The notes under the pieces: model-generated
Database searches by the model: none
What the model was told of the DNA's origin: nothing
What the model saw: only the letters and a program-made list of their open reading frames with translations
Source: Bacteroidia bacterium
Lineage (GTDB): Bacteria; Bacteroidota; Bacteroidia; JADZBD01
NCBI GenBank assembly: GCA_020054095.1
Contig: JAGVMA010000052.1
Location: forward strand, 124,001-188,000
Length of the DNA: 64,000 bases
Direction: 5' to 3'
Part shown: positions 6,382 to 58,059 of the stretch, one piece after another
How the letters are laid out: each line of letters opens with the position of its first letter
How positions within the stretch are numbered: position 1 is the stretch's first letter
Made by a program: the position numbers and the translations under genes

Positions 6382-8544
6382 ATGAAAACAAACATTTACA
6401 AGTATCTAGCAGCAAGCGTGGTAGCCGTAACCATGGCATTTAATACCGCTAACGCTCAAATGAACTGTGGCACAGACGAAGCCATGAAGCAATTATTTAA
6501 AGATTTCCCACAATTGGAAGAACAACACAACCAGTTATGGGAAAACGCCAAAAAAGAATGGCAACAACAAAAGTTGATGAACCCACAATCAACAGCGCCA
6601 TTGGTTGTTCCCATTGTTTTTCATATCATTCACCAGTATGGAAGTGAGAATATTTCTAAAGCTCAAATAGTTGACCAAGTAAACATTCTTAATATGCAAT
6701 ATCGCAAACAAAATGCCGATACAGCTACTGTAGAACCCAGTATGATTCCGTTTATTGCTGACAGTAAAATTGAGTTTCGTTTACCTACCAAAGATCCAGA
6801 TGGAAACTGCACCGATGGAATTGATAGAATATATTCTCATAAAACAAATCAAGCTGGTGATGATTCAAAACTAAATCAATGGCCGCGCGATAAATACTTA
6901 AATGTGTGGGTTGTGAGAACAATTGCATCCGGAGCTGCCGGTTATGCTTATTACCCATCAGCTACTACTGGCATTGCATTTACACGAGATGGAATTATTA
7001 TTTTACATAATTATGTAGGTAGTATAGGGACGAGCCAACCCTCTAATCAAAGTGCATTAACACATGAAATTGGCCACTATTTAAACTTGGCTCACGTATG
7101 GGGTAGTAACAATCAAGCAGGTGCGGCTTGTGGTGATGATGGGATTGGAGATACTCCTGAAACAAAAGGGTTTATAGGATGTCCTTCTACAATTGCTCAA
7201 AAAAGTGCATGTGCATTACTACTTACTCCACCAGATACAATAATAGAGAACTACGAGAACTATATGGACTACTCTTATTGCTTTAAAATGTTTACAATAG
7301 GTCAAGCATTTGCTATGAATTCAACGCTAAATAGTGCAGTTGCATACCGCAATAATTTGTGGACTACCGCTAACCGCTTAGCTACTGGTACAGATTCTGC
7401 ATCGCAAGCAAATATGCCGCTTTGTATTCCTAAAGCAGAATTTAATATGAACAGAAACATGGTTTGCCAAGGAGGTACGGTTACATTTACTGATAGATCA
7501 TGGCGTGGTGTTCCTACTTCATGGCAATGGATTATTCCTAATGGCACTCCATCTACATCTACTGCGCAAAACCCTACTATTACATTTAACACTTGGGGGC
7601 AACAAGATGTAACATTGATTGCGACCAACGCATCGGGCAGCGATACAATGTACTGGAAAAATGCAGTATTTGTTAGCCAACCATGGGATGATGGTAACGG
7701 AACTTACTCAGAAAGTTTTGAAAACAATATGAACTTTGAGAACCTATGGTTAAAACAAAACATGGAAGATAATGGCGTTTTTTGGAAAAAAAATACTTTA
7801 GCGGCATACACCGGAACCACTTCAGTTTACCTTCCGCTGTTCAACCAAATTGACCAAACAGGTAACGGAGATAGAAACTTAGTTGATGCTATTATATCTC
7901 CTTCACTAAATTTGACCGGATCATCAAATATGTCAATCAACTTTAAATTTTCAGGCGCTACTACTTCAACCAATCCGGCTGATTATACCGAAAATCTAAA
8001 AGTATATGTGTCTAACAACTGTGGACAGACTTGGAGCACAACACCAATAAGAACATTAACCGGTGCTCAGCTTTTAACAGGTGGTTATTCTCAATACCCT
8101 TTCTATCCTAATGACCAAAGTTTGTGGGGTTCTACAATATGTAATATTCCTTCCAGTTACTTGACAACTAACTTCCGCTTCAAAATTGAGTACACATCTG
8201 GCAACAAATCAAACAATCTTTATATTGATGACATCAATTTATCAGGTACAGTAGGTGTAAACGAAATTGTTAACTATAATTTTGGGTTAAATGTATTTCC
8301 AAATCCGGCAAACGGAAATGATAATATTACAATTTCTTACACACTTTCTACTCAAGAAAATATCACTGTTAGCATAGTAGATATGATTGGTAAAGAAATA
8401 GCTGTATTAGTAAACACCACACAAACTTCTGGTGATAAAACAATTAATATCCGTAAGTCGGAACTTAATTTAACTTCAGGAGTTTACTTAGTTAAAATAA
8501 GCAACAGCACGAGCTACACTACTCGTAAGTTGGTTGTCAACTAA
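6382..8544 (+). CDS. Secreted M43 (pappalysin-like) zinc protease with PKD and T9SS domains
   Basis: A 720-residue secreted metalloprotease. ATG 6382 gives a signal peptide ending in NTANAQ. The zinc site is HEIGHYLNLAHVWG near residue 226, the HExxHxxNxxHxW form typical of Bacteroidota M43 enzymes, and NYMDYS supplies the Met-turn. A PKD domain follows at about 353-430 (WQWIIPNG...), then a beta-sandwich with a MAM/jelly-roll look (about 450-625), and a type A sorting domain (VFPNPANGND ... SGVYLVKI) for T9SS export. Expected role: extracellular protein degradation, or processing of surface proteins. It has its own promoter and a terminator. Confidence 0.92.
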   Translation: MKTNIYKYLAASVVAVTMAFNTANAQMNCGTDEAMKQLFKDFPQLEEQHNQLWENAKKEWQQQKLMNPQSTAPLVVPIVFHIIHQYGSENISKAQIVDQVNILNMQYRKQNADTATVEPSMIPFIADSKIEFRLPTKDPDGNCTDGIDRIYSHKTNQAGDDSKLNQWPRDKYLNVWVVRTIASGAAGYAYYPSATTGIAFTRDGIIILHNYVGSIGTSQPSNQSALTHEIGHYLNLAHVWGSNNQAGAACGDDGIGDTPETKGFIGCPSTIAQKSACALLLTPPDTIIENYENYMDYSYCFKMFTIGQAFAMNSTLNSAVAYRNNLWTTANRLATGTDSASQANMPLCIPKAEFNMNRNMVCQGGTVTFTDRSWRGVPTSWQWIIPNGTPSTSTAQNPTITFNTWGQQDVTLIATNASGSDTMYWKNAVFVSQPWDDGNGTYSESFENNMNFENLWLKQNMEDNGVFWKKNTLAAYTGTTSVYLPLFNQIDQTGNGDRNLVDAIISPSLNLTGSSNMSINFKFSGATTSTNPADYTENLKVYVSNNCGQTWSTTPIRTLTGAQLLTGGYSQYPFYPNDQSLWGSTICNIPSSYLTTNFRFKIEYTSGNKSNNLYIDDINLSGTVGVNEIVNYNFGLNVFPNPANGNDNITISYTLSTQENITVSIVDMIGKEIAVLVNTTQTSGDKTINIRKSELNLTSGVYLVKISNSTSYTTRKLVVN

Positions 8545-19457: not shown

Positions 19458-20180
19458 TTACAAACTCATTATATCTTTAAATTTAGCGGCTTGCCTGCGC
19501 GATATTTCTATCTGTTCGCCACCTTTCATTTTCACCATTAGCCCGCCATTAAACCACCCTTCCATGCTTTCTATCCATTTTAGATTAATGATGTGCTTAC
19601 GGCTTGCGCGAAAAAATGATTTTTGCGACAGGCGCTCATCCAAATAATTTAACGACCGCAAAATTAATGGACGATATTGACCGAAATATACACGCACATA
19701 ATTTCCCTCCGATTCGAATAATCGTATTTCAGATAACTTAACAAACCAGCATCTCTCACCATCTTTAACAAATACCTGATCTTCATCTGTTAATTGTAAA
19801 TTATCATTTTTAGAAATTAATTCTTTTTCGCTTTTTTCTATTGCGCGTTTAATTGCTGCGCCTAGTCTTTCTGTTTGCACGGGTTTTAATAAATAATCTA
19901 TTGCATTTACCTCAAATGCTCTTATTGCATACTCATCATAAGCGCTTATAAAAATAATTTTGGGAGCAAATTCTAAATCCCTGAGCATGTCAAAGCCATT
20001 TTTACCGGGCATTTGTATGTCCAAAAAAATTAAATCGGGTTGAAGCTCGGCTATTGATTTTAATGCCTGCTGCGCATTTGCGCACTCATCCACCAAATTA
20101 ATTTCGGGAAAATTTTTGAGCAACGATTTTAATTCCTGGCGAGCCAAGCGCTCATCATCTACAATAATGGCTTTAATCAT
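19458..20180 (-). CDS. LytTR family response regulator
   Basis: A 240-residue response regulator: receiver domain (1-120) with acidic pair Asp8-Asp9, phospho-acceptor Asp54 (FLDIQMPG), Ser in FISAYDEYA and Lys in LLKPV; then a C-terminal LytTR DNA-binding domain (about 140-240) with ESEGNYVRVYFG and FFRASRKHIINL. Its start overlaps the kinase stop (ATGA), so the pair is one operon. LytTR regulators bind imperfect direct repeats. Targets are unknown. Confidence 0.95.
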   Translation of the reverse strand: MIKAIIVDDERLARQELKSLLKNFPEINLVDECANAQQALKSIAELQPDLIFLDIQMPGKNGFDMLRDLEFAPKIIFISAYDEYAIRAFEVNAIDYLLKPVQTERLGAAIKRAIEKSEKELISKNDNLQLTDEDQVFVKDGERCWFVKLSEIRLFESEGNYVRVYFGQYRPLILRSLNYLDERLSQKSFFRASRKHIINLKWIESMEGWFNGGLMVKMKGGEQIEISRRQAAKFKDIMSL

Positions 20181-21217
20181 AATTTGGGTAATATTATTTT
20201 AGTTAAAACTTTTTTTGAATCATAATTAGTTAAAAGGAGCGAAGCTTTATCACCAAAAATTAAATGCAAGCGCTGTTTTGTATTTATAATTCCAAATCCT
20301 GTTTCGGATTTCTGCGATGATAATTGCCCACAGTTGATTACTTCAATCTGCATTTTATCGTCAGTTACTTTGGCATTTATAGAAATTTCACCGCCTTCTG
20401 GTAATTTAGAAATGCCGTGCTTAATTCCGTTTTCCACAATTGTTTGAAGCAGCATAGGCGGTATTTCGTAATCGAGTGCGGTGGCATCTATATCATATTT
20501 TGTAGTTAGTCGCTCTTCAAAGCGAGTAGTTTCTAAATTCAAATAATCTTTAACCAAAAGCATTTCTTCTGAAAAGGGAATTAGTCTTTTTTTGCCCATC
20601 AGTAATGTGTTTCGCAAAATATTGGAAAGCTGCGTAATTGCTTCTTTTGATTTAGATGGGTCTTCATCTACCAATGCTCTTATACTATTCATGGAATTAA
20701 AAATGAAATGCGGATTAAGTTGCGATTTAAGTTTGTTCAACTCTATCTCAACCACTGATGCTTGCCAGCGTAAATTTTCAATTTCAGAAAGGCGATAATT
20801 TTTTATATAGTGTATTAAAAAATAAATGAGCGACCATACTATAAAAACAAAATTTATGCTCACAATATTGGTTAGCATAGTTGCCGACATTAAATAATCC
20901 ATCAAAAAACTTACATTAAAAACAATGTACTCTACAAATGCTTGTGTAATAGCAAACACAGAGGCAAACACTAAACATAAAAGTAACAGAATGGGCGTGA
21001 GTTGCAAAGGTTTTAAATCCTTCAATTTCAGTTTTAAAATGAGTAATCTGTAAAGGTGTGAGAAAAAAATACCCAGCACGAAAATCAAGAAAAGACTAAA
21101 CGCACTTTCAGGCGTAATTTTAAAACCAAGAATTATTTGAGTGTAAAAACCTATGAGAAGTGTGTAGAAAAACCACCCACATGTTTGGCTAAACCAATAT
21201 AACGATTGCCTGTTCAT
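20177..21217 (-). CDS. LytS/YehU-type sensor histidine kinase
   Basis: A 346-residue membrane kinase with four hydrophobic segments in the first ~150 residues and no periplasmic sensor domain, then a short linker and a His_kinase domain: LNPHFIFNSMNSIRAL carries the phospho-acceptor His, and PPMLLQTIVENGIKHG and GFGIINTKQRL are the N and G boxes of the ATPase part. It pairs with the overlapping LytTR regulator. M61 protease gene lies 10 bases upstream on the same strand, so all three may be co-transcribed. Confidence 0.95.
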   Translation of the reverse strand: MNRQSLYWFSQTCGWFFYTLLIGFYTQIILGFKITPESAFSLFLIFVLGIFFSHLYRLLILKLKLKDLKPLQLTPILLLLCLVFASVFAITQAFVEYIVFNVSFLMDYLMSATMLTNIVSINFVFIVWSLIYFLIHYIKNYRLSEIENLRWQASVVEIELNKLKSQLNPHFIFNSMNSIRALVDEDPSKSKEAITQLSNILRNTLLMGKKRLIPFSEEMLLVKDYLNLETTRFEERLTTKYDIDATALDYEIPPMLLQTIVENGIKHGISKLPEGGEISINAKVTDDKMQIEVINCGQLSSQKSETGFGIINTKQRLHLIFGDKASLLLTNYDSKKVLTKIILPKL

Positions 21218-42106: not shown

Positions 42107-43045
42107 CTACGCTGCTACTTGCTTGTTTTGTTTTTCGGCATAAGCTGCTGCTGCTTGGCGCACCCATTGTCCATTATTGTGAGCACGGTTGCGAGTATCC
42201 AATCGTTCTTTATTGCAAGGGCCATTGCCGGCAATTACATTGTTAAACTCTGCCCAATCGGGTGTTCCAAAATCGTAACCCTTTTTTTCTTCGTTCCATT
42301 TTAAATCTTTATCCGGAATGGTTAAGCCAATTAATTCGGCTTGTGGCACTGTTTGGTTTACAAATCGCTGACGAAGCTGATCGTTACTTTCGCGTTTTAT
42401 TTTCCACTTAATGGCATTTGCCGTGTTAGGCGATTTTTCATCGGGAGGACCGAACATCATTAGCGATGGCCACCACCAGCGGTTAAGTGCATCTTGCGCC
42501 ATTTCTTTTTGTTCGGCAGTGCCGCGGGCAAGCACCATCATTATTTCATAACCTTGGCGCTGATGAAAACTTTCTTCTTTGCAAATACGCACCATAGCAC
42601 GTGCATAAGGACCATACGATGTGCGCTGCAACATTACCTGATTCATAATAGCTGCTCCATCTACCAGCCAGCCCACTGCGCCTATATCGGCCCAAGTGAG
42701 CGTGGGATAATTAAAGATGGATGAGTATTTGGCTTTGCCGGTGTGTAATTGGTCAAGTAATTCATCGCGGCTGATGCCGAGTGTTTCGGCTGCGCTGTAT
42801 AAATAGAGGCCGTGTCCGCCTTCGTCTTGCACTTTGGCTAATAGTACCATTTTTCTGCGTAAGCTGGGGGCGCGTGTTATCCAGTTGCCTTCGGGTAGCA
42901 TGCCTATTATTTCGCTGTGGGCGTGTTGCGATATTTGCCTTATCAGGTGCTTGCGGTAATTTTCGGGCATCCAGTCTTTAGGTTCTATGCTTGTGTTTGA
43001 AGCTAATTTGGCTTCAAAACCGTTTTCGTGCTGCGTGTTATCCAT
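42107..43045 (-). CDS. paaA: Phenylacetyl-CoA epoxidase catalytic subunit PaaA
   Basis: A 312-residue di-iron oxygenase subunit that epoxidises the ring of phenylacetyl-CoA. Family blocks: [21 protein letters not shown], the metal-ligand helices [17 protein letters not shown] and [13 protein letters not shown], and [16 protein letters not shown]. First gene of the cluster; no paaE reductase, paaK ligase or paaZ ring-opening gene is present in the window, so these must be elsewhere. A -7-like element (TATCTTTA, minus strand, 43067-43074) lies upstream. Confidence 0.96.
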
Positions 43046-43137
43046 AGCTTATTTTTTTGCTGATGCTAAAGATAAGTGTAAGATGTTGATTTTAAAAATC
43101 ATTTTTTGGGGTACAAAATTCCATTTCACTAAAACCA

Positions 43138-43374
43138 TTCAGACGTGTATGTTTTTAAGCAGTTTTTACAGAACATAAAACCAATGAGAATGGGGATTTT
43201 GTACAATAAGTAGCTTCAAAAGTCGCTTTCAGACCTGTATGTTTTTGCTAAAATTTAAAAAGTATTCTGACCTGTATGTTTTTGACTTCTATTTACACAC
43301 AAAAAAATGAATAAAAACAAGGGGTTCAAACAAACAAGACGACAAAAACCACCTCTCTGACCTGTATGTTTTTG
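43138..43374 (+). repeat. Four ~20-bp direct repeats in the paaA upstream gap
   Basis: Copies at 43138-43156 (TTCAGACGTGTATGTTTTT), 43228-43247, 43265-43284 and 43355-43374, all in the same direction. The last three share the core TGTATGTTTTTG and GACCTGTATG. Start-to-start distances are 90, 37 and 90 bp, so copies 1 and 3 and copies 2 and 4 are both 127 bp apart. The 70-71 bp stretches between 1-2 and 3-4 show weak similarity (TTTACA, AATGA, GGGG in similar places). They occupy the 397-bp gap between paaA and the giant secreted protein; the rest of that gap holds only a possible paaA promoter and nothing else I can identify. Confidence 0.9.
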
Positions 43375-43442
43375 GTAGAAATACTTGAAACATTAGCCTT
43401 TTAGCGGAGTATCATTGTTATATAAAATTAAAAAACAATCAC

Positions 43443-46400
43443 ATGAAACAAATCAAAACCATTAAAATCAACATTCATCAACTATTGATTAAATGTTTCA
43501 TCCCCGCTTTGTTATTTTTAACATTAACTGCAAAAGCCGACAATTATTTTTGGGTTGGCGGCACCGGTAATTGGTCAAACTATTCGCAACACTGGGCTAC
43601 CAGTTCGGGCGGTAATGTTTTTCACACACGTGTCCCATCGCCAAACGATACGGTAGTGTTTGATACACTATCGTTCGTTAATTATAACGATACTGTACAT
43701 TGCGATTCTATAATTTTAACTTGCTACACCATGCGCTGGGAACAGCAGCATTTGCATCCTGTTTTCAGGAACGCTGCAATATCTAATAGTAATATTTTGA
43801 AAATATATGGTTCTCTTTTGCTCGACACCGGTTTAACATGGGCTTATACTGGAAAAATATATTTTGAATCAATTGTAATCGGAAATAAAATACTTTCGGC
43901 CGGAAGGTATATTCCACTTTTATATTTCAGAAGCAATAGTGGCGGCTGGGCATTGCAAGATAGCTTGAGTGCAGGTAAAATGATTTTCAGTAACGGATTT
44001 TTTTATACCAATAATCAAAAAGTAAACTGTAATGAATTTAGGACAGTAATAGGAAACGGTGCTCAGATTTTTTTAGGAGAATCAGACATTTACACTTCTT
44101 TGTTTTCTATGCAACACCCCCCTTTATCACTCGATGCTGATAGTGCAACCATTTACCAGTCAAGCGGATATTTTTGGGGCGGAAATCAAACATATAATAG
44201 GGTTGTATTGCAGGGTTACTCTGTAATTTATCAAAATAATTATTTCTACAAATTTGAAACCGCTAACGGATGTATTATTAAAGGTTCTAATATCTTTGAC
44301 ACACTTTATTCGCATACGCCAGGCAGTGTAATCACCCTATTGGCGGGCACAACTCAAACCGTAAACGACTCGTTAATACTAAACGGCAACTGCGACACAC
44401 TTACAACTTTGGAGGGTGCCCCGGAAGGCTATAACGCTAATTTTTTCAAAAACAATTTGCCGGCAAATGTAAATGGGCTTGTTTTCGATGGTATAAGTAG
44501 CAACAATAACATTAACTGCAACTATTCAATCCCACTTGGCAATGCTACGGGCTGGAATATTTTAAGTTCGCCATCGCCACGCATACTTTATTGGGTGGGC
44601 GGCTCGGGCAACTGGAGCGATGCCCAACATTGGAGTACCACAAGTGGCGGTTCTGGTGGCAACTGCGCACCTAATCCGCTTGACGATGTGTTTTTTGATG
44701 CACAAAGTTTTGCTAATGGAAACGATACCGTGAAACAAGATTTAAGCATTTCGTATTGCCAAAACATGGACTGGACTGGAGCAACCTTATCGCCACAATT
44801 ACGTAACATTGGAACAATTAAAATTTGGGGTTCGCTAACATTTATTAATCAAATGACGGTGGCTAATGCCAACATACGCATGCGATCTAACCTACCGTTT
44901 AACACAATTACCAATGCCGGGCATAGTTACGCAAGCCTAACATTTAACGGATACGGCAATTTTCATACTAATGATGTAATTAATGTTTTGGGAGGTGTAT
45001 ATTTAGCTAACGGAAATGTGTTTACAAACGGAAACAATATTAATTGTGGAATTTTCAGTGCACTATCGGGCTGGCAAAAAAGTATTGACCTTACTAATGT
45101 TACAGTAAACTGTGCTAAATGGGATGTGGACGGCACTAATACATTTACCATTAACACTACTGGCTCAATAATAAACATGAGTACCGATAAATTTGGCAGT
45201 AACAATCAAATGTATAACATAGTAAACTATGCCGGCAAAGCGGGTGTTGGCATAGTTGAACCCAGCTATCAAAACTTTGGTAACAATAGTTTCAGGAAAG
45301 TAATAACTAATGGCAAAGTAATTATTTGGGGCGGCAACACATTTGATACCCTGCAATGCAACGGCAATGGATTTACAATTACACTCGATGCCGCATACAC
45401 GCAAACCATCAATAACCAATTTACTGCAAATGGAATTTGCGCAGCACCTATCGAAATAAAATCAACTGCTTACGGCAGTGCAGGCATTATTTTTAAAAAC
45501 AGCGGAAACGTTACACTTAACTATGTTATTTTAGAAGATGTGAATGCAACAGGCGGTGCAAATTTCACTGCTAACTTATGTTGCGCATTAACAAATGTTA
45601 CGGGCTGGAATGTGATTCCGATACCGAACAATACATTGTATTGGATTGGCGGCAGCGGCAATTGGGGCAATCCTGCACATTGGTCGCTCACGAGCGGTGG
45701 CACACCCAATATACCACAGTGCGTGCCCTGGCCTGTTAACGATGCTATTTTTGATGCCGCATCGTACATCAATTTAGGCGATGCTACACTTATTAATGTA
45801 ACCAATGCCTATTGCAAAAACATTGATTGGAGTGCGGCAACATTAAATCCAAATTTTACGAGCAATGCAAACTGTGCGCTAAATGTTTTTGCATCATTTA
45901 CACTAAACCAAAATATGACTAACGGAAATTACCCAACTGTTTTTCGTTCTGCTCAAGCCGGCAATACAATTAACACCGCCACACAGCCAATGGGCGGAAT
46001 TGAATTGCGAGGCATAGGTGGTGATTGGACTGCCGCATCGGCAATTGTATCAGATAGCATAAGCTTAAATAACGGAACATTTAATTTGGCAGGACAACAA
46101 TTAAACACAGGTAACTTTATTTCTAATGGCGGTGATACAAGAACTTTACTTTTAGATACGGCACAAATACGTGCAAACAACTGGCTGCTATCAAGCACCA
46201 ATCTTACACTCGATGCCGATAGCGCAAGCATAACTTTAACAGGAACAAAATTTAATGGTGCTAACAATAATTACCTGAGCTTGCTTACAACAGGCGATGC
46301 AAACATTTACTCATCAGATAGTTTTAAAATCGTAGTGCTTTCGCGGATTGATACAGTAATGAACGATATGAGTGTGGACTCATTAGTGCTAAACAACGCT

Positions 46401-47651
46401 GGCATGCAATTAACCGTTACAGCCGGAAAAATTATCACTATCAATAACAGCATAAGCACTAATGCCAACTCGGGCGCGCCATTAGCTATTGAGTGCATGA
46501 CGCAAGGTAGTGTGAGCTATTTTAAAAAATTGCAGGATACCGTTTGCCTCGATTTTATAGAAATACGCGATGTGGACACGCTTGGCGGTGCTGTATTTTT
46601 TGCCGGACTTAACGGCAGCAAAAGTGGCAATGCTAACGGATGGCTTTTGCAAGATTGCAACCCAGTTTATAGTAATGTGTGGCCAGGCGATGCCGGTTAC
46701 GATACCATTGCCAATAATTTTGATTTATTAAAAATTGGTATTGCATATAACGAAACAGGTACCATCCGCCCTAATGCATCACTTAACTGGGTGGGACAAC
46801 CTTGCCCCGACTGGAACCGAATTTTTACAGACACCACCGATATTAAGCATGCCGATTGCGATGGCAGCGGAATTGTTGACATGAATGATACACTTGCTGT
46901 ATCGCTGAATTACAACAGTTGGCATGCCGCTAATCAAAAAATAAATACATTGCAAAGCGTGGGCTTACCACTTTATATTGATATGCCATATACGCAAGTA
47001 GTGCCTGGCCAAACGGTAACCATTCCTATAAAACTCGGTACTGCATTTACTACTGCTACCAATGTTTATGGCATTGCATTTACAGTTACTTATCAGCAAA
47101 GCAAAATAGCACCCGGTAGCATGAGCTTTAGTTACAACAACTCGTGGCTAATTGCGAACAATACAGGATTTGGTTTTGCAAAAAACTTTTTTACGCAAGG
47201 CGAAACCGATTTTGCTATTACACGTATCAATCACACCAATGCTACCGATACGGGCGAAATTGCATCTATCACACTCACAATTGACCCTAACGCAAGCGGT
47301 GCGCTTAAAATGTTTATCACCGATATTAAATTAATAGATGCCAACGAAAACGAAATAGATGTGCAAACCATGAGCGGCTCTATGACCATACTTGGCATCA
47401 GCGAATATGGCAGCGCCACGGCTGTAAATGTTTTCCCTAACCCAAGCAGCGGACAATTTATATTAGACGATGCGGCTATTGGAAACGGTGCCCAACTTTA
47501 TGTTTACGATGCGCTGGGCAACACCGTGCAAGCGCTAACCATTACACAGCAAAACCAATTAATAGATATAAGCCAACAACCTAAAGGGATTTACATTATT
47601 AAAGTTATTACCCAAGAAAAAGTTTATACCGCAAGGGTGGTGATAGAATGA
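43443..47651 (+). CDS. Giant T9SS-secreted repeat protein with dockerin- and cohesin-like parts
   Basis: A 1402-residue secreted protein. Signal peptide to ~32 (...FLTLTAKA). Three repeats of about 350 residues begin with FWVGGTGNWSNYSQHW (~36), YWVGGSGNWSDAQHWS (~382) and YWIGGSGNWGNPAHWS (~733); each continues as beta-helix-like, Asn/Thr-rich sequence with few charges. At ~1077-1165 are two dockerin-like calcium loops (PGDAGYDTIANNFDLL, degenerate, and ADCDGSGIVDMNDTLA). A cohesin-like beta-sandwich follows (~1180-1320; PGQTVTIPIKLGTA ... GEIASITLTI) and then the type A sorting domain (VFPNPSSGQF ... KGIYIIKV). Likely a surface adhesin or matrix protein; no enzyme domain seen. Confidence 0.85.
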   Translation: MKQIKTIKINIHQLLIKCFIPALLFLTLTAKADNYFWVGGTGNWSNYSQHWATSSGGNVFHTRVPSPNDTVVFDTLSFVNYNDTVHCDSIILTCYTMRWEQQHLHPVFRNAAISNSNILKIYGSLLLDTGLTWAYTGKIYFESIVIGNKILSAGRYIPLLYFRSNSGGWALQDSLSAGKMIFSNGFFYTNNQKVNCNEFRTVIGNGAQIFLGESDIYTSLFSMQHPPLSLDADSATIYQSSGYFWGGNQTYNRVVLQGYSVIYQNNYFYKFETANGCIIKGSNIFDTLYSHTPGSVITLLAGTTQTVNDSLILNGNCDTLTTLEGAPEGYNANFFKNNLPANVNGLVFDGISSNNNINCNYSIPLGNATGWNILSSPSPRILYWVGGSGNWSDAQHWSTTSGGSGGNCAPNPLDDVFFDAQSFANGNDTVKQDLSISYCQNMDWTGATLSPQLRNIGTIKIWGSLTFINQMTVANANIRMRSNLPFNTITNAGHSYASLTFNGYGNFHTNDVINVLGGVYLANGNVFTNGNNINCGIFSALSGWQKSIDLTNVTVNCAKWDVDGTNTFTINTTGSIINMSTDKFGSNNQMYNIVNYAGKAGVGIVEPSYQNFGNNSFRKVITNGKVIIWGGNTFDTLQCNGNGFTITLDAAYTQTINNQFTANGICAAPIEIKSTAYGSAGIIFKNSGNVTLNYVILEDVNATGGANFTANLCCALTNVTGWNVIPIPNNTLYWIGGSGNWGNPAHWSLTSGGTPNIPQCVPWPVNDAIFDAASYINLGDATLINVTNAYCKNIDWSAATLNPNFTSNANCALNVFASFTLNQNMTNGNYPTVFRSAQAGNTINTATQPMGGIELRGIGGDWTAASAIVSDSISLNNGTFNLAGQQLNTGNFISNGGDTRTLLLDTAQIRANNWLLSSTNLTLDADSASITLTGTKFNGANNNYLSLLTTGDANIYSSDSFKIVVLSRIDTVMNDMSVDSLVLNNAGMQLTVTAGKIITINNSISTNANSGAPLAIECMTQGSVSYFKKLQDTVCLDFIEIRDVDTLGGAVFFAGLNGSKSGNANGWLLQDCNPVYSNVWPGDAGYDTIANNFDLLKIGIAYNETGTIRPNASLNWVGQPCPDWNRIFTDTTDIKHADCDGSGIVDMNDTLAVSLNYNSWHAANQKINTLQSVGLPLYIDMPYTQVVPGQTVTIPIKLGTAFTTATNVYGIAFTVTYQQSKIAPGSMSFSYNNSWLIANNTGFGFAKNFFTQGETDFAITRINHTNATDTGEIASITLTIDPNASGALKMFITDIKLIDANENEIDVQTMSGSMTILGISEYGSATAVNVFPNPSSGQFILDDAAIGNGAQLYVYDALGNTVQALTITQQNQLIDISQQPKGIYIIKVITQEKVYTARVVIE

Positions 47652-47760
47652 TTTTTTTTGGGGAACAAAAAATGAACTTTGAACAAGTAAGAAAACTTTT
47701 AAATTAATTTTTTAGCCACAAAATTGTAACCCACATTTGAAAATACAAAACACCCAACAC

Positions 47761-49290
47761 ATGAAAACACTATTTATCTACATTTTCACTTTGCTATTAG
47801 TAAATGTAAATGCACAGCAGCACATTACTTTTCAGAAGGAAATAAAATCAAATGGGCAAGCAATGGATATTATTGATATTAACCAATGCGCTGATGGATC
47901 ATATTTGGTTTTAGCAATGAACGACATCGGCTCCCCCAATGTTGTTAAACTCAACAATATTGGGGGCGTCATCTGGTCAAAATCCTTATTCGGGAACATA
48001 GATTATCATAGAATTGGAGAAAAAACTGGTGGAGGATATTATCTCTGTGGAAGCATTTTAGATACCGGAGGATATTACCCCGCTCTTGTGTTTCTAACTA
48101 ACCAAGGAGACTTTGTTAGTGGTAAATTCTATAAACGACTAAACTCATATTCAATTGACATGTATAGCCCTTATAAAATAAAACAAATGAGCAACGGAAA
48201 CTTTCTTATATCTGCTAACTCAGATGAAAGCATGGGCATTATTAGAACAGATGACATGGGCAATGTCATTTTCAGCAAGTACTTTAGTAGTGATTCAACA
48301 AAAAATCCATCGTTTGATTTGTCTGAAACAAGTGATGGGGGAATAATCAGCTGCGGAAAATCTGATTCCTATAAAATGTTTGTAAAAATTGATGCTTCAG
48401 GAAATTTGCAGTGGTCTAAAACATTTATTGAGCCTAACTATTACACACATATTAAAAGTATTACTCGTACATACGATGGAAACATTGTCGCAGTTGGGTT
48501 TGAATCAGACATAAATGGAAATACGTATTGTGGATTTGTAATGAAAATAGATAATGCGGGCAATATACTTTGGCATAAAAGATATTCAGATCAAAACAAC
48601 CAAATATATTTTTTAGATATTAATGAAATATGGGGCGGTAATTTGGTTATTTCTACTCGTTATCCTTATACTTACGCCCCGGCTGTTTTAGTAACAGACA
48701 ACTCGGGTAATATTTTGAGTTCAAATACAGTAGCTAATATTGGCGCATTTAATTATCATTTAAAGAAAATCAACAATGATGATATTTTACTCTCTATGAC
48801 TGGAACTGATTTTCAGACACAACTCTTTCGATCTTTATTATTTAAGTCCGATTGGATCAGTATGCTATGGTGTGATAAAACGAATTTTCCTTTAACTGTT
48901 ACAAATGTTGACCATAGCAACACTACTTTTTCCTCCAATGTAACTACCTACAGCGGATGTATTGCTAATAGTATATCGTTAACAACAACGGCCAACAACA
49001 ATATTACCTCCACCGACTATTGTGCATCTACTTCAATTACAGAAAACAAAAAGGAAGGCAGCATAGAAATATTTCCAAATCCAAGCAATGGTTATTTTAA
49101 CATTAAAACTAGTTTGCAAAATTTTTCAGTGTCAGTTTATGATGTATTGGGTAACGTAGTTTACAATGTTGCAAATACCACACAGCTAAATTTAGCTAAC
49201 CAAGCAAAGGGCGTTTATTATATTCAGCTTACCGATTTATCGGGCAGTGGTGCACAATCTGTGCTTTCAGAAAAAGTTATAATTCAATAA
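47761..49290 (+). CDS. T9SS-secreted beta-propeller-like protein
   Basis: A 509-residue secreted protein. ATG 47761 gives a good signal peptide (MKTLFIYIFTLLLVNVNAQQ); an upstream start at 47737 adds only polar residues. Residues ~30-390 consist of ~50-residue repeats of the pattern GGYYLCG...VKLNNIGGVIWSK, seen as SNGNFLISANSDE, SDGGIISCGKSD and YDGNIVAVGFESD, with 'D-x-x-G-N-I-L-W' turns, as in many Bacteroidota propellers. A type A sorting domain closes it (IFPNPSNGYF ... AKGVYYIQL). Function unknown. It is 110 bp from the giant protein and ends in a very long hairpin. Confidence 0.82.
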   Translation: MKTLFIYIFTLLLVNVNAQQHITFQKEIKSNGQAMDIIDINQCADGSYLVLAMNDIGSPNVVKLNNIGGVIWSKSLFGNIDYHRIGEKTGGGYYLCGSILDTGGYYPALVFLTNQGDFVSGKFYKRLNSYSIDMYSPYKIKQMSNGNFLISANSDESMGIIRTDDMGNVIFSKYFSSDSTKNPSFDLSETSDGGIISCGKSDSYKMFVKIDASGNLQWSKTFIEPNYYTHIKSITRTYDGNIVAVGFESDINGNTYCGFVMKIDNAGNILWHKRYSDQNNQIYFLDINEIWGGNLVISTRYPYTYAPAVLVTDNSGNILSSNTVANIGAFNYHLKKINNDDILLSMTGTDFQTQLFRSLLFKSDWISMLWCDKTNFPLTVTNVDHSNTTFSSNVTTYSGCIANSISLTTTANNNITSTDYCASTSITENKKEGSIEIFPNPSNGYFNIKTSLQNFSVSVYDVLGNVVYNVANTTQLNLANQAKGVYYIQLTDLSGSGAQSVLSEKVIIQ

Positions 49291-56142: not shown

Positions 56143-57672
56143 TTAGTTACTCAGTTTTTTAAGACTACGTTCAATGTACTTATCAGTTGGCAACAAACTG
56201 GTTTGTATTCGCTTGGCATAACGTATTGAATCTAAAATTTCCTTTTGTTTTTCTTCTACTAAATCTTTTTGATTTTCTACTGTTTGTTTTTGTAATTCAA
56301 TAATTAATTTTTGTTTTTGTGTTACACGCAAGTTACGGAAAACAAAAAATGCAAAGCCAACAACAAGCAACAAAACTCCTGAAACTGAAAACAAAATAAT
56401 TTGCTGTTGCTTTTTATTTGCTGCAGCTTGCGCATCTTTTATTTCCTGCTCGGCTTTGGTGGCAGTTTCTTTTTTATCAAACTCATATTGCATCTCTTGC
56501 TGAACAATTTTTTTGGTATTGTCTTCGTTTACCAAACTATCGCGCAAAGCGATATATAACTTATAATTATCTAAAGCCCCTTTGTAATTACCTATAATAC
56601 TATCGGCATGCGACAATGCGGCATAAGCCATTTTCGCACTTTCTTTACTTCCTATTTCATTTGAAAGAGTTAAACTTTTTTCGAGCCAAGTGTTTCCTTC
56701 TTTTATTTTTCCATTAAAAACATAAACCTGCCCTATACTGCAATATGTAAATGCTACTGCTTGTTTATCATTAACTCCCACTTGTATTTTTAATGAAACA
56801 AAATAATTCTCCAATGCTTTATCGTATCTTTTTTGTTGAAAATAAAGCAGTCCAATGTGAAAATACGAATCGCCAATGCCTCTTTTATAACCTATTTCTT
56901 CTGCAATTTTTAATGATGACATATAGCTTTTTAATGCCTCCGAATAATTTTTTTGGTTAGCATAAACCGAACCAATATTTGCATGAACAGCCGCAATGCC
57001 TCGCCTATCGCCTTTATCACCAATCATCTTTAGCGAAGCAAGATAACTTTTAAGCGCTTCATCTAAATTCCCCTGATAAAAATAAATATTGCCAATGTTA
57101 CTGTATGTAATTGCAATTCCGGTTTTATAGCTGGTTTGCTCAGCTATTTTTAATGCATCGAAATAATATTTTAATGCTGCCGGATAGTTTCCTTGTGATT
57201 TATATACTAACCCTATATTGCCCAGCGCATCCACAATTCCGCGAGTGTAACCAATCTCTTTAGTAATTTCATAAGCCGTAAAATGATTTTTGAGCGCTTG
57301 CGAGTAATTACTCTGCGACTGATGATTATTGCCCATATTTGTGTACGAATCAACAAGCCCTTTTTTGTAGTTAATTTTTTCGGCTAACAACTTTGCTTCG
57401 CCTGCATAGTAAAACGAGCTATCGTAATCACCAATACGCCTAGTATATTCACTAAGCTTATTTAATGTATTTACTTTATTTGAGTCTTCTTTAGCAGTTT
57501 TTAAAACAATGAGTAGTGAATCTATTTTTTTGTTTTGTGCGTACGATTGCTTCGCTCCGCTCGCAATAACGATGGAGAGAAACAAGATGCAAGACAAGAT
57601 TACTTTTCTTCGCTCTTTACTCTTGGCTCTCCAATCTTGATTCTTGTTTCTTGATTCTTGATTCTCTAACAT
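56143..57672 (-). CDS. TPR protein with membrane helix and SpoIIE-linker-like tail
   Basis: A 509-residue protein. After an N-terminal signal-like helix (KVILSCILFLSIVIASGA) come about eight 40-residue TPRs (for example GNYPAALKYYFDALKIAEQT, KNYSEALKSYMSSLKIAEEI), a Gln/Lys/Ala-rich coiled coil, one TM helix (~423-445) and a second coiled coil ending in EKQKEILDSIRYAKRIQTSLLP and 14 more residues. In other Bacteroidota that last motif is the linker leading to a SpoIIE/PP2C phosphatase, which is absent here; a short form may also be natural. The first ~22 codons lie in a heptamer repeat and part of the signal peptide in a dispersed repeat, so the start is doubtful: a TTG within KVILSC may be the real one. 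Confidence 0.75.
   Translation of the reverse strand: MLENQESRNKNQDWRAKSKERRKVILSCILFLSIVIASGAKQSYAQNKKIDSLLIVLKTAKEDSNKVNTLNKLSEYTRRIGDYDSSFYYAGEAKLLAEKINYKKGLVDSYTNMGNNHQSQSNYSQALKNHFTAYEITKEIGYTRGIVDALGNIGLVYKSQGNYPAALKYYFDALKIAEQTSYKTGIAITYSNIGNIYFYQGNLDEALKSYLASLKMIGDKGDRRGIAAVHANIGSVYANQKNYSEALKSYMSSLKIAEEIGYKRGIGDSYFHIGLLYFQQKRYDKALENYFVSLKIQVGVNDKQAVAFTYCSIGQVYVFNGKIKEGNTWLEKSLTLSNEIGSKESAKMAYAALSHADSIIGNYKGALDNYKLYIALRDSLVNEDNTKKIVQQEMQYEFDKKETATKAEQEIKDAQAAANKKQQQIILFSVSGVLLLVVGFAFFVFRNLRVTQKQKLIIELQKQTVENQKDLVEEKQKEILDSIRYAKRIQTSLLPTDKYIERSLKKLSN
57544..57571 (-). repeat. Dispersed palindromic repeat inside a coding region
   Basis: On the minus strand GTTATTGCGAGCGGAGCG then AAGCAATCG, close to a sequence I recall as abundant in Bacteroidota and some other phyla (ATTGCGAGCG-A-GCGAAGCAAT). 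ATTGC and GCAAT ends form a hairpin. It is read in frame as IASGAKQS within the signal peptide of the TPR protein. Confidence 0.6.
57636..57664. repeat. 7-bp tandem repeat at the TPR gene start
   Basis: Units CTTGATT, CTTGTTT, CTTGATT, CTTGATT and a partial CTC on the plus strand. On the minus strand they encode the ENQESRNKNQD stretch near the annotated start. Confidence 0.75.
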
Positions 57673-57792: not shown

Positions 57793-58059
57793 ATGATTTT
57801 CTCCCACAAGATAAGAGCAAAATACAAAGAGACAGGTCTGCCGCACAAGGAGAAAACTTCTGCGGACAAGGAGAAAACTTCAACAGACAAGAAGAAAACT
57901 TCAACAGACATGGAGAAAACCTCAACAGACAAGGAGAAAACATCAACAGACTATGAGAAAACATCAACAGACTATGAGAAAACTTCAACAGACATGGAGA
58001 AAACGCTGAAATACAAGGAGAAAATGCCCAAAAACTTGGGGATAGAACTTTTTACCTAG
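57793..58059 (+). CDS. Possible repeat protein encoded by a minisatellite
   Basis: An 88-residue frame from ATG 57793 (MIFSHKIRAKYKETGLPH) in which nine 7-residue units KEKTSTD and variants (KKKTSTD, MEKTSTD, YEKTSTD) follow each other, ending in MPKNLGIELFT. A longer frame from a TTG at 57691 exists. Variation falls mostly on the first residue of each unit (K/M/Y), and the opposite strand is open too (FSPCLLK repeats). I cannot tell a gene from a translated minisatellite; no promoter, signal or family is evident. Confidence 0.3.
   Translation: MIFSHKIRAKYKETGLPHKEKTSADKEKTSTDKKKTSTDMEKTSTDKEKTSTDYEKTSTDYEKTSTDMEKTLKYKEKMPKNLGIELFT
57847..58035. repeat. 21-bp tandem repeat (minisatellite), nine units
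   Basis: Nine units of exactly 21 bp; the first seven differ by 1-4 bases and the last two are more diverged. Each has GAGAAAAC followed by a TCAACAGAC-like half. A degenerate unit may precede at 57826. Confidence 0.92.

Follow-up and report, generated by a model that had tools for sequence, protein, structure and literature searches.

The 397-bp gap between paaA (43045) and the gene for a 1402-aa secreted protein (43443) in the window, i.e. the whole 64,000-nucleotide stretch of DNA analysed here, contains four direct repeats of a 16-bp motif. These probably function as an operator, namely as a conserved-module operator array for a sequence-specific transcription activator that would control a few secreted-protein genes. 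Computed directly from the DNA, as described below, are the individual sites and arrays, the pair 37 bp apart, the offset of 51 bp to the predicted -7 box and the conservation across families.

Repeat array and neighbouring genes

All four copies lie on the forward strand (Table 1), with start-to-start spacings of 90/37/90 bp and gaps of 74, 21 and 74 bp between them. Three copies are exact (GACCTGTATGTTTTTG) and the first, GACGTGTATGTTTTTA, carries two mismatches. The earlier note had described four same-direction copies with the last three nearly identical, a mirror-like spacing with pairs 127 bp apart, and the 397-bp gap, and all of this was reproduced. At up to three mismatches, six matches were found in the window compared with 0.83 expected, and none of 100 shuffles reached six.

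When the two 127-bp halves of the array were aligned, the motif copies matched at 30 of 32 positions, whereas the 70-bp spacers were 51% identical (36/70). Dinucleotide shuffles of the spacers gave 22.4 +/- 3.5 identities (32% expected), and 0 of 3,000 shuffles reached 36; this excess is in favour of an old duplication of 127 bp in which the motifs were under selection, and a 60-nt stretch that recurs 127 bp downstream (Table 1) supports an old duplication as well. The weak spacer similarity and the old duplication that had kept only its motifs, both put forward in the earlier note, are thus borne out. Elsewhere in the window (57840-58010, reverse strand), near-identical short units (GTTTTCTCCTTGTCTGTTGAA-like) occur in a run directly 5' of a TPR protein gene (56143-57672).

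The window array is located in a 268-kb contig (C40) with metabolic genes. In the collection, the order is represented by two genomes only; G001 is the sole relative from the same family, and G245 belongs to a different family. G001 has kept the paa genes, but its paaA faces a different gene, without repeats at that place, and it lacks the secreted-protein genes found in the window. Because paaA is kept in G001 without repeats while those secreted-protein genes are missing, the array appears to be tied to the secreted-protein gene and not to paaA.

Table 1. Features of the repeat array and its surroundings (positions in the window, unless another locus is given)
Feature	Position	Strand	Remarks
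paaA (PaaA_PaaC)	42107..43045	-	divergent; part of paa operon; probably not the target
60-nt stretch, first copy	43131..43190	+	70% identity to second copy 127 bp downstream
Site W1	43142..43157	+	GACGTGTATGTTTTTA; farthest upstream and most degenerate; model score 18.9 bits
X-Y core, 56 bp	43229..43284	+	includes A/T spacer AAATTTAAAAA; 47/56 identity to C83 core, E=5e-11
Site W2 ('X')	43232..43247	+	GACCTGTATGTTTTTG; 127 bp 5' of promoter-proximal site
60-nt stretch, second copy	43258..43317	+	
Site W3 ('Y')	43269..43284	+	GACCTGTATGTTTTTG; 37 bp past X; equal X-Y pair in C83 and G245 arrays
Site W4 ('P')	43359..43374	+	GACCTGTATGTTTTTG; promoter-proximal; predicted -65 to -50
Predicted Bacteroidetes -7 box	43410..43417	+	TATCATTG; 51 bp after start of site P; predicted transcription start ~43424
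Gene for 1402-aa secreted protein	43443..47651	+	probable target; T9SS sorting domain (PF18962); no ortholog in G001
Gene for 517-aa T9SS-sorted protein	47737..49290	+	next gene; possibly co-transcribed
Stem-loop copy	L086 7662-7590	-	
Stem-loop copy	L284 8905-8985	+	
Stem-loop copy	L099 1446-1362	-	
Stem-loop copy	L280 2020-2098	+	
Stem-loop copy	L283 2372-2440	+	

Copies in the same genome

In whole-genome searches of the 3.17-Mb genome, the motif was found at three loci: the window array, one further cluster (C83) and a single copy (C45). At each locus it lies upstream of a secreted-protein gene, on that gene's coding strand (the C40 copies on the forward strand only, the C83 copies on the reverse strand only). 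The C83 array precedes a gene for a T9SS-secreted protein and comprises copies at L086 7985, 7862 and 7825 and a degenerate one at 7736 (spacings 123/37/89); it repeats the 37-bp pair with the conserved spacer (Table 1). The degenerate copy (C83d, GACCTATAGAGTTGAG), which represents site P at C83, was counted as a member of the array because of its position and its match to TTCTCAGACCT. The C45 copy precedes a gene whose 142-aa product has a start resembling a signal peptide. Random scatter without a link to promoters, which the earlier note had named as evidence against its reading, is the opposite of what was found: every cluster of copies lies upstream of a secreted-protein gene.

Of the other T9SS genes of the genome, 57 were examined for the motif in their upstream regions, and none has it, which indicates a small set of promoters and no general T9SS feature. 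The genome has a large secreted repertoire, with at least about 150 matches to the T9SS sorting domain in 3.17 Mb, and the domain is present at two of the three motif loci; with this many T9SS genes, the link of the motif to secreted-protein genes is only mildly surprising. The T9SS gene at C83 shows a frame break about 30 codons past its start (L086 7556-7432, reverse strand), either an assembly error or a pseudogene.

Promoter geometry

Bacteroidetes promoters carry a -7 box of the form TAnnTTTG (PMC7366714). After the 51-bp offset had been noticed by inspection, this box was scored at every offset from the start-proximal site in four promoters, and the best of all offsets was 51 bp, a result reached by 0 of 3,000 dinucleotide shuffles; the boxes at this offset are TAGTTTTG (G245, 6/6), TAGTTTAG (C83, 5/6), TATCATTG (window, 5/6) and TTAATTAG (C45, 4/6). 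With the window and G245 alone, the 51-bp offset was reached by 1 of 3,000 shuffles; the C45 promoter contributes one site and a weak 4/6 box. The position relative to TAnnTTTG is hence the same in four promoters (offset 51), as in an activator operator at a sigma-ABfr promoter, and site P is predicted to lie at about -65 to -50. Such a position is typical for activators that contact RNA polymerase from upstream. For the C83 gene, the corresponding transcription start is predicted near L086 7671. A scan for sigma-70-type promoters found none, as expected for the phylum.

The X-Y distance is 37 bp in all three arrays (window, C83 and G245, in this order below), while the Y-P distance is 90, 89 and 78 bp and the X-P distance 127, 126 and 115 bp; the latter corresponds to 12.1, 12.0 and 10.95 turns at 10.5 bp. 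In G245 the X-P distance is 11-12 bp below that of the other two arrays, i.e. shorter by about one turn, which is what a face-of-helix constraint predicts. Site Y is half a turn out relative to P.

Action at the RNA level, with each copy and an upstream A-run forming a hairpin in the transcript (AAAAAC...GTTTTT), is very improbable. An A-run does precede seven of the nine copies, against a background of 22%, and two of the C83 copies give better folds than their shuffles do (P 0.007 and 0.017); however, the remaining seven copies fold no better than shuffles, nor does the entire gap (z 0.32), the gap has no Rfam match, and the predicted transcription start is downstream of all copies.

A stem-loop with the conserved loop GGGATGTTG[CT]T, whose stems differ but stay complementary, was observed at five loci (Table 1) and is a candidate for a new structured RNA. 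The C83-type T9SS gene carries it in its leader in three genomes, in two of them about 10 nt past the predicted start, and in two cases it lies 3' of a LytTR regulator gene; the L283 copy is followed by a terminator-like hairpin. The C83 copy gave no match in Rfam.

Arrays in other genomes

In G245 (L099), an array is present in the intergenic region orthologous to that of C83; both flanking genes are orthologs of those at C83 (55-59% and 43% identity). The gap contains GACATGTATATTTTTG at L099 1841 and 1631, a weak CACATGTATAC at 1594, i.e. 37 bp past X, and GACCTGTATATTTTTG at 1516 (spacings 210/37/78). This locus was first picked up as a single one-mismatch match, and the array was recognised through the neighbouring genes. 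A 786-kb contig of G245 contains no array beyond this one, as expected for a local regulator.

The exact motif is lost from the same gap in G001, and a changed motif, RAYATGTTAAA, is found at three places. The heptamer ATGTTAA, which was spotted by inspection and tested afterwards, occurs three times in 18 kb, all within this gap: at the start codon of the divergent gene, at the matching start-proximal position, where a -7 box without mismatch (TAGATTTG) follows at 52 bp, and 92 bp farther upstream. The motif thus seems to have changed in step in G001 while two positions stayed.

Searches for the exact motif in 84,980 species genomes gave 73 single matches, apparently due to chance, and no clustered copies; viral contigs gave 20 single matches and no 37-bp pair. 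A scan of the class at one mismatch gave matches in 76 of 395 genomes, mostly single ones, and including the G245 locus.

The small number of copies, the 56-bp core common to two loci and the traces of duplication in the 127-bp halves might also be explained by a decaying dispersed repeat, i.e. a small, functionless non-coding element that was copied to three places and tandemly multiplied. We consider this unlikely, given motifs that are near identical next to diverged spacers, the constant 51-bp offset to predicted -7 boxes in two genomes, the orthologous array in another family, and the coherent replacement of the motif in G001.

Comparison with known operators

The operator array might be served by a different regulator, e.g. 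one of ten LytTR proteins, an AraC-type or a SusR-like protein, a possibility that we rate a little short of even. The genome encodes ten LytTR domains over the cut-off, one of them in a response regulator that forms a pair with a histidine kinase in the window (19458-21217, reverse strand), and the HTCS and SusR regulators of Bacteroidetes use spaced direct repeats (PMC3878776); the evidence on the other side is the spacing and sequence of the sites, as set out for each type below, and the BT2802-like gene, which in three genomes lies divergently next to the array.

LytTR-family operators resemble the present array as direct repeats just upstream of promoters (PMC6193735, PMC4227749), but 11-13 bp lie between their repeats (PMC6193735) and 21 or 74 bp between those found here. 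In the gap (43046-43442, both strands), no match to WMMGTTNRK was found, and a LytTR operator does not fit. A role of the response regulator/kinase pair is not supported either. The pattern WMMGTTNRK, i.e. [TA][AC][CA]GTTN[AG][TG], is the consensus of the LytTR half-site. Operators of HTCS (AraC-type hybrid two-component) regulators are likewise direct repeats in Bacteroidetes promoters, with sites of 12-16 bp that are on average 21 bp apart (PMC3878776), in contrast to the spacings of 90/37/90, 123/37/89 and 210/37/78 observed here.

SusR-like operators of Bacteroides consist of a pair of sites with a spacing of 67 or 77 bp (Ravcheev et al. 2013, PMC3878776). The likeness to the present array is in direct repeats on one face of the DNA, whole turns apart, upstream of genes for Bacteroidetes surface machinery; the differences are in the distances (37, 78-90 and 115-127 bp here), the number of sites (three or four) and the gene neighbours. 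The sole value near 67 or 77 bp is the Y-P distance in G245 (78 bp), and the SusR-like spacing does not fit. By analogy, the array would work like a SusR operator, in that its direct repeats are far apart and in phase, but it is not one itself.

A set of sites of about 20 bp, all in one direction and irregularly spaced, also looks like transposon ends, and G001 lacks these secreted-protein genes beside paaA. That the repeats belong to a mobile element, as its ends or its binding sites (Tn7-like transposase sites, iterons), is nevertheless extremely improbable: iterons and transposon ends fail because partner arrays and genes are absent, with no inverted partner array on either contig (C40, C83) and no transposase or replication initiator gene among the neighbours scanned, and the array is kept at the orthologous promoter of another family.

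Of the interpretation offered in the earlier note, the regulator binding sites hold, as does the old duplication; LytTR as the regulator and a mobile or iteron-like element are not supported.

Candidate regulator

The divergent genes at the array of C83 and in G001 and G245 are orthologous (51-60% identity) and match NCBIfam BT2802_fam (NF058569) over near full length (E 1e-36 to 2e-58). Their scores are 180, 198 and 127 bits (the last from a partial sequence) against a cut-off of 550, and the encoded protein is, as judged from these scores, a distant relative of the BT2802 family only. BT2802 is presumably identical with RusR. RusR controls the ribose genes BT2803-2809 of B. thetaiotaomicron (PMC12596196). 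The gene that adjoins the conserved array thus resembles this family over its length, but its score is far under the cut-off, and ribose genes were not seen nearby. A published operator for the BT2802/RusR family was not found in the literature looked at.

In three of three genomes a site overlaps the start codon of the divergent gene, with a match that is partly forced by the Met-Ser codons; at C83 and in G245 the similarity continues 5' of the start codon. Autoregulation by the BT2802-like protein would be the simplest reading. The chance that this protein is the regulator of the array is, in our estimate, about even. A Pfam DNA-binding domain was not detected in it, and a PDB search with it gave only a weak TPR match; its conserved N-terminal 100 residues could form a helix-turn-helix.

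Proposed mechanism

For the proposed operator, binding, activation (not repression), looping and the identity of the regulator are inferred from the sequence. Once bound at site P, a protein would bring in RNA polymerase at a promoter that lacks a clear -33 element, and proteins at X and Y would assist by looping or wrapping of the DNA, with X separated from P by nearly integral numbers of helical turns (12, 12 and 11). The likeliest regulator would be the BT2802 (RusR)-family protein encoded divergently from the array at the C83 locus and by its orthologs; it would regulate its own expression through the site that overlaps its start codon and, acting in trans, would also control the window gene and the C45 gene.

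To our knowledge, little is known about how the expression of individual T9SS cargo genes is turned on in Bacteroidetes. As a tentative generalization, TPR-type proteins distantly related to RusR may be DNA-binding activators of T9SS-secreted proteins that act via helically phased, widely spaced direct repeats, with an operator that coevolves with the regulator (GACCTGTATGTTTTTG, GACATGTATATTTTTG, GAYATGTTAAA) in a nearly fixed geometry. The conserved cis-module, with its exact promoter geometry and a candidate regulator as neighbour, is experimentally tractable and, if the proposal is true, would provide the first operator described for this regulator family.
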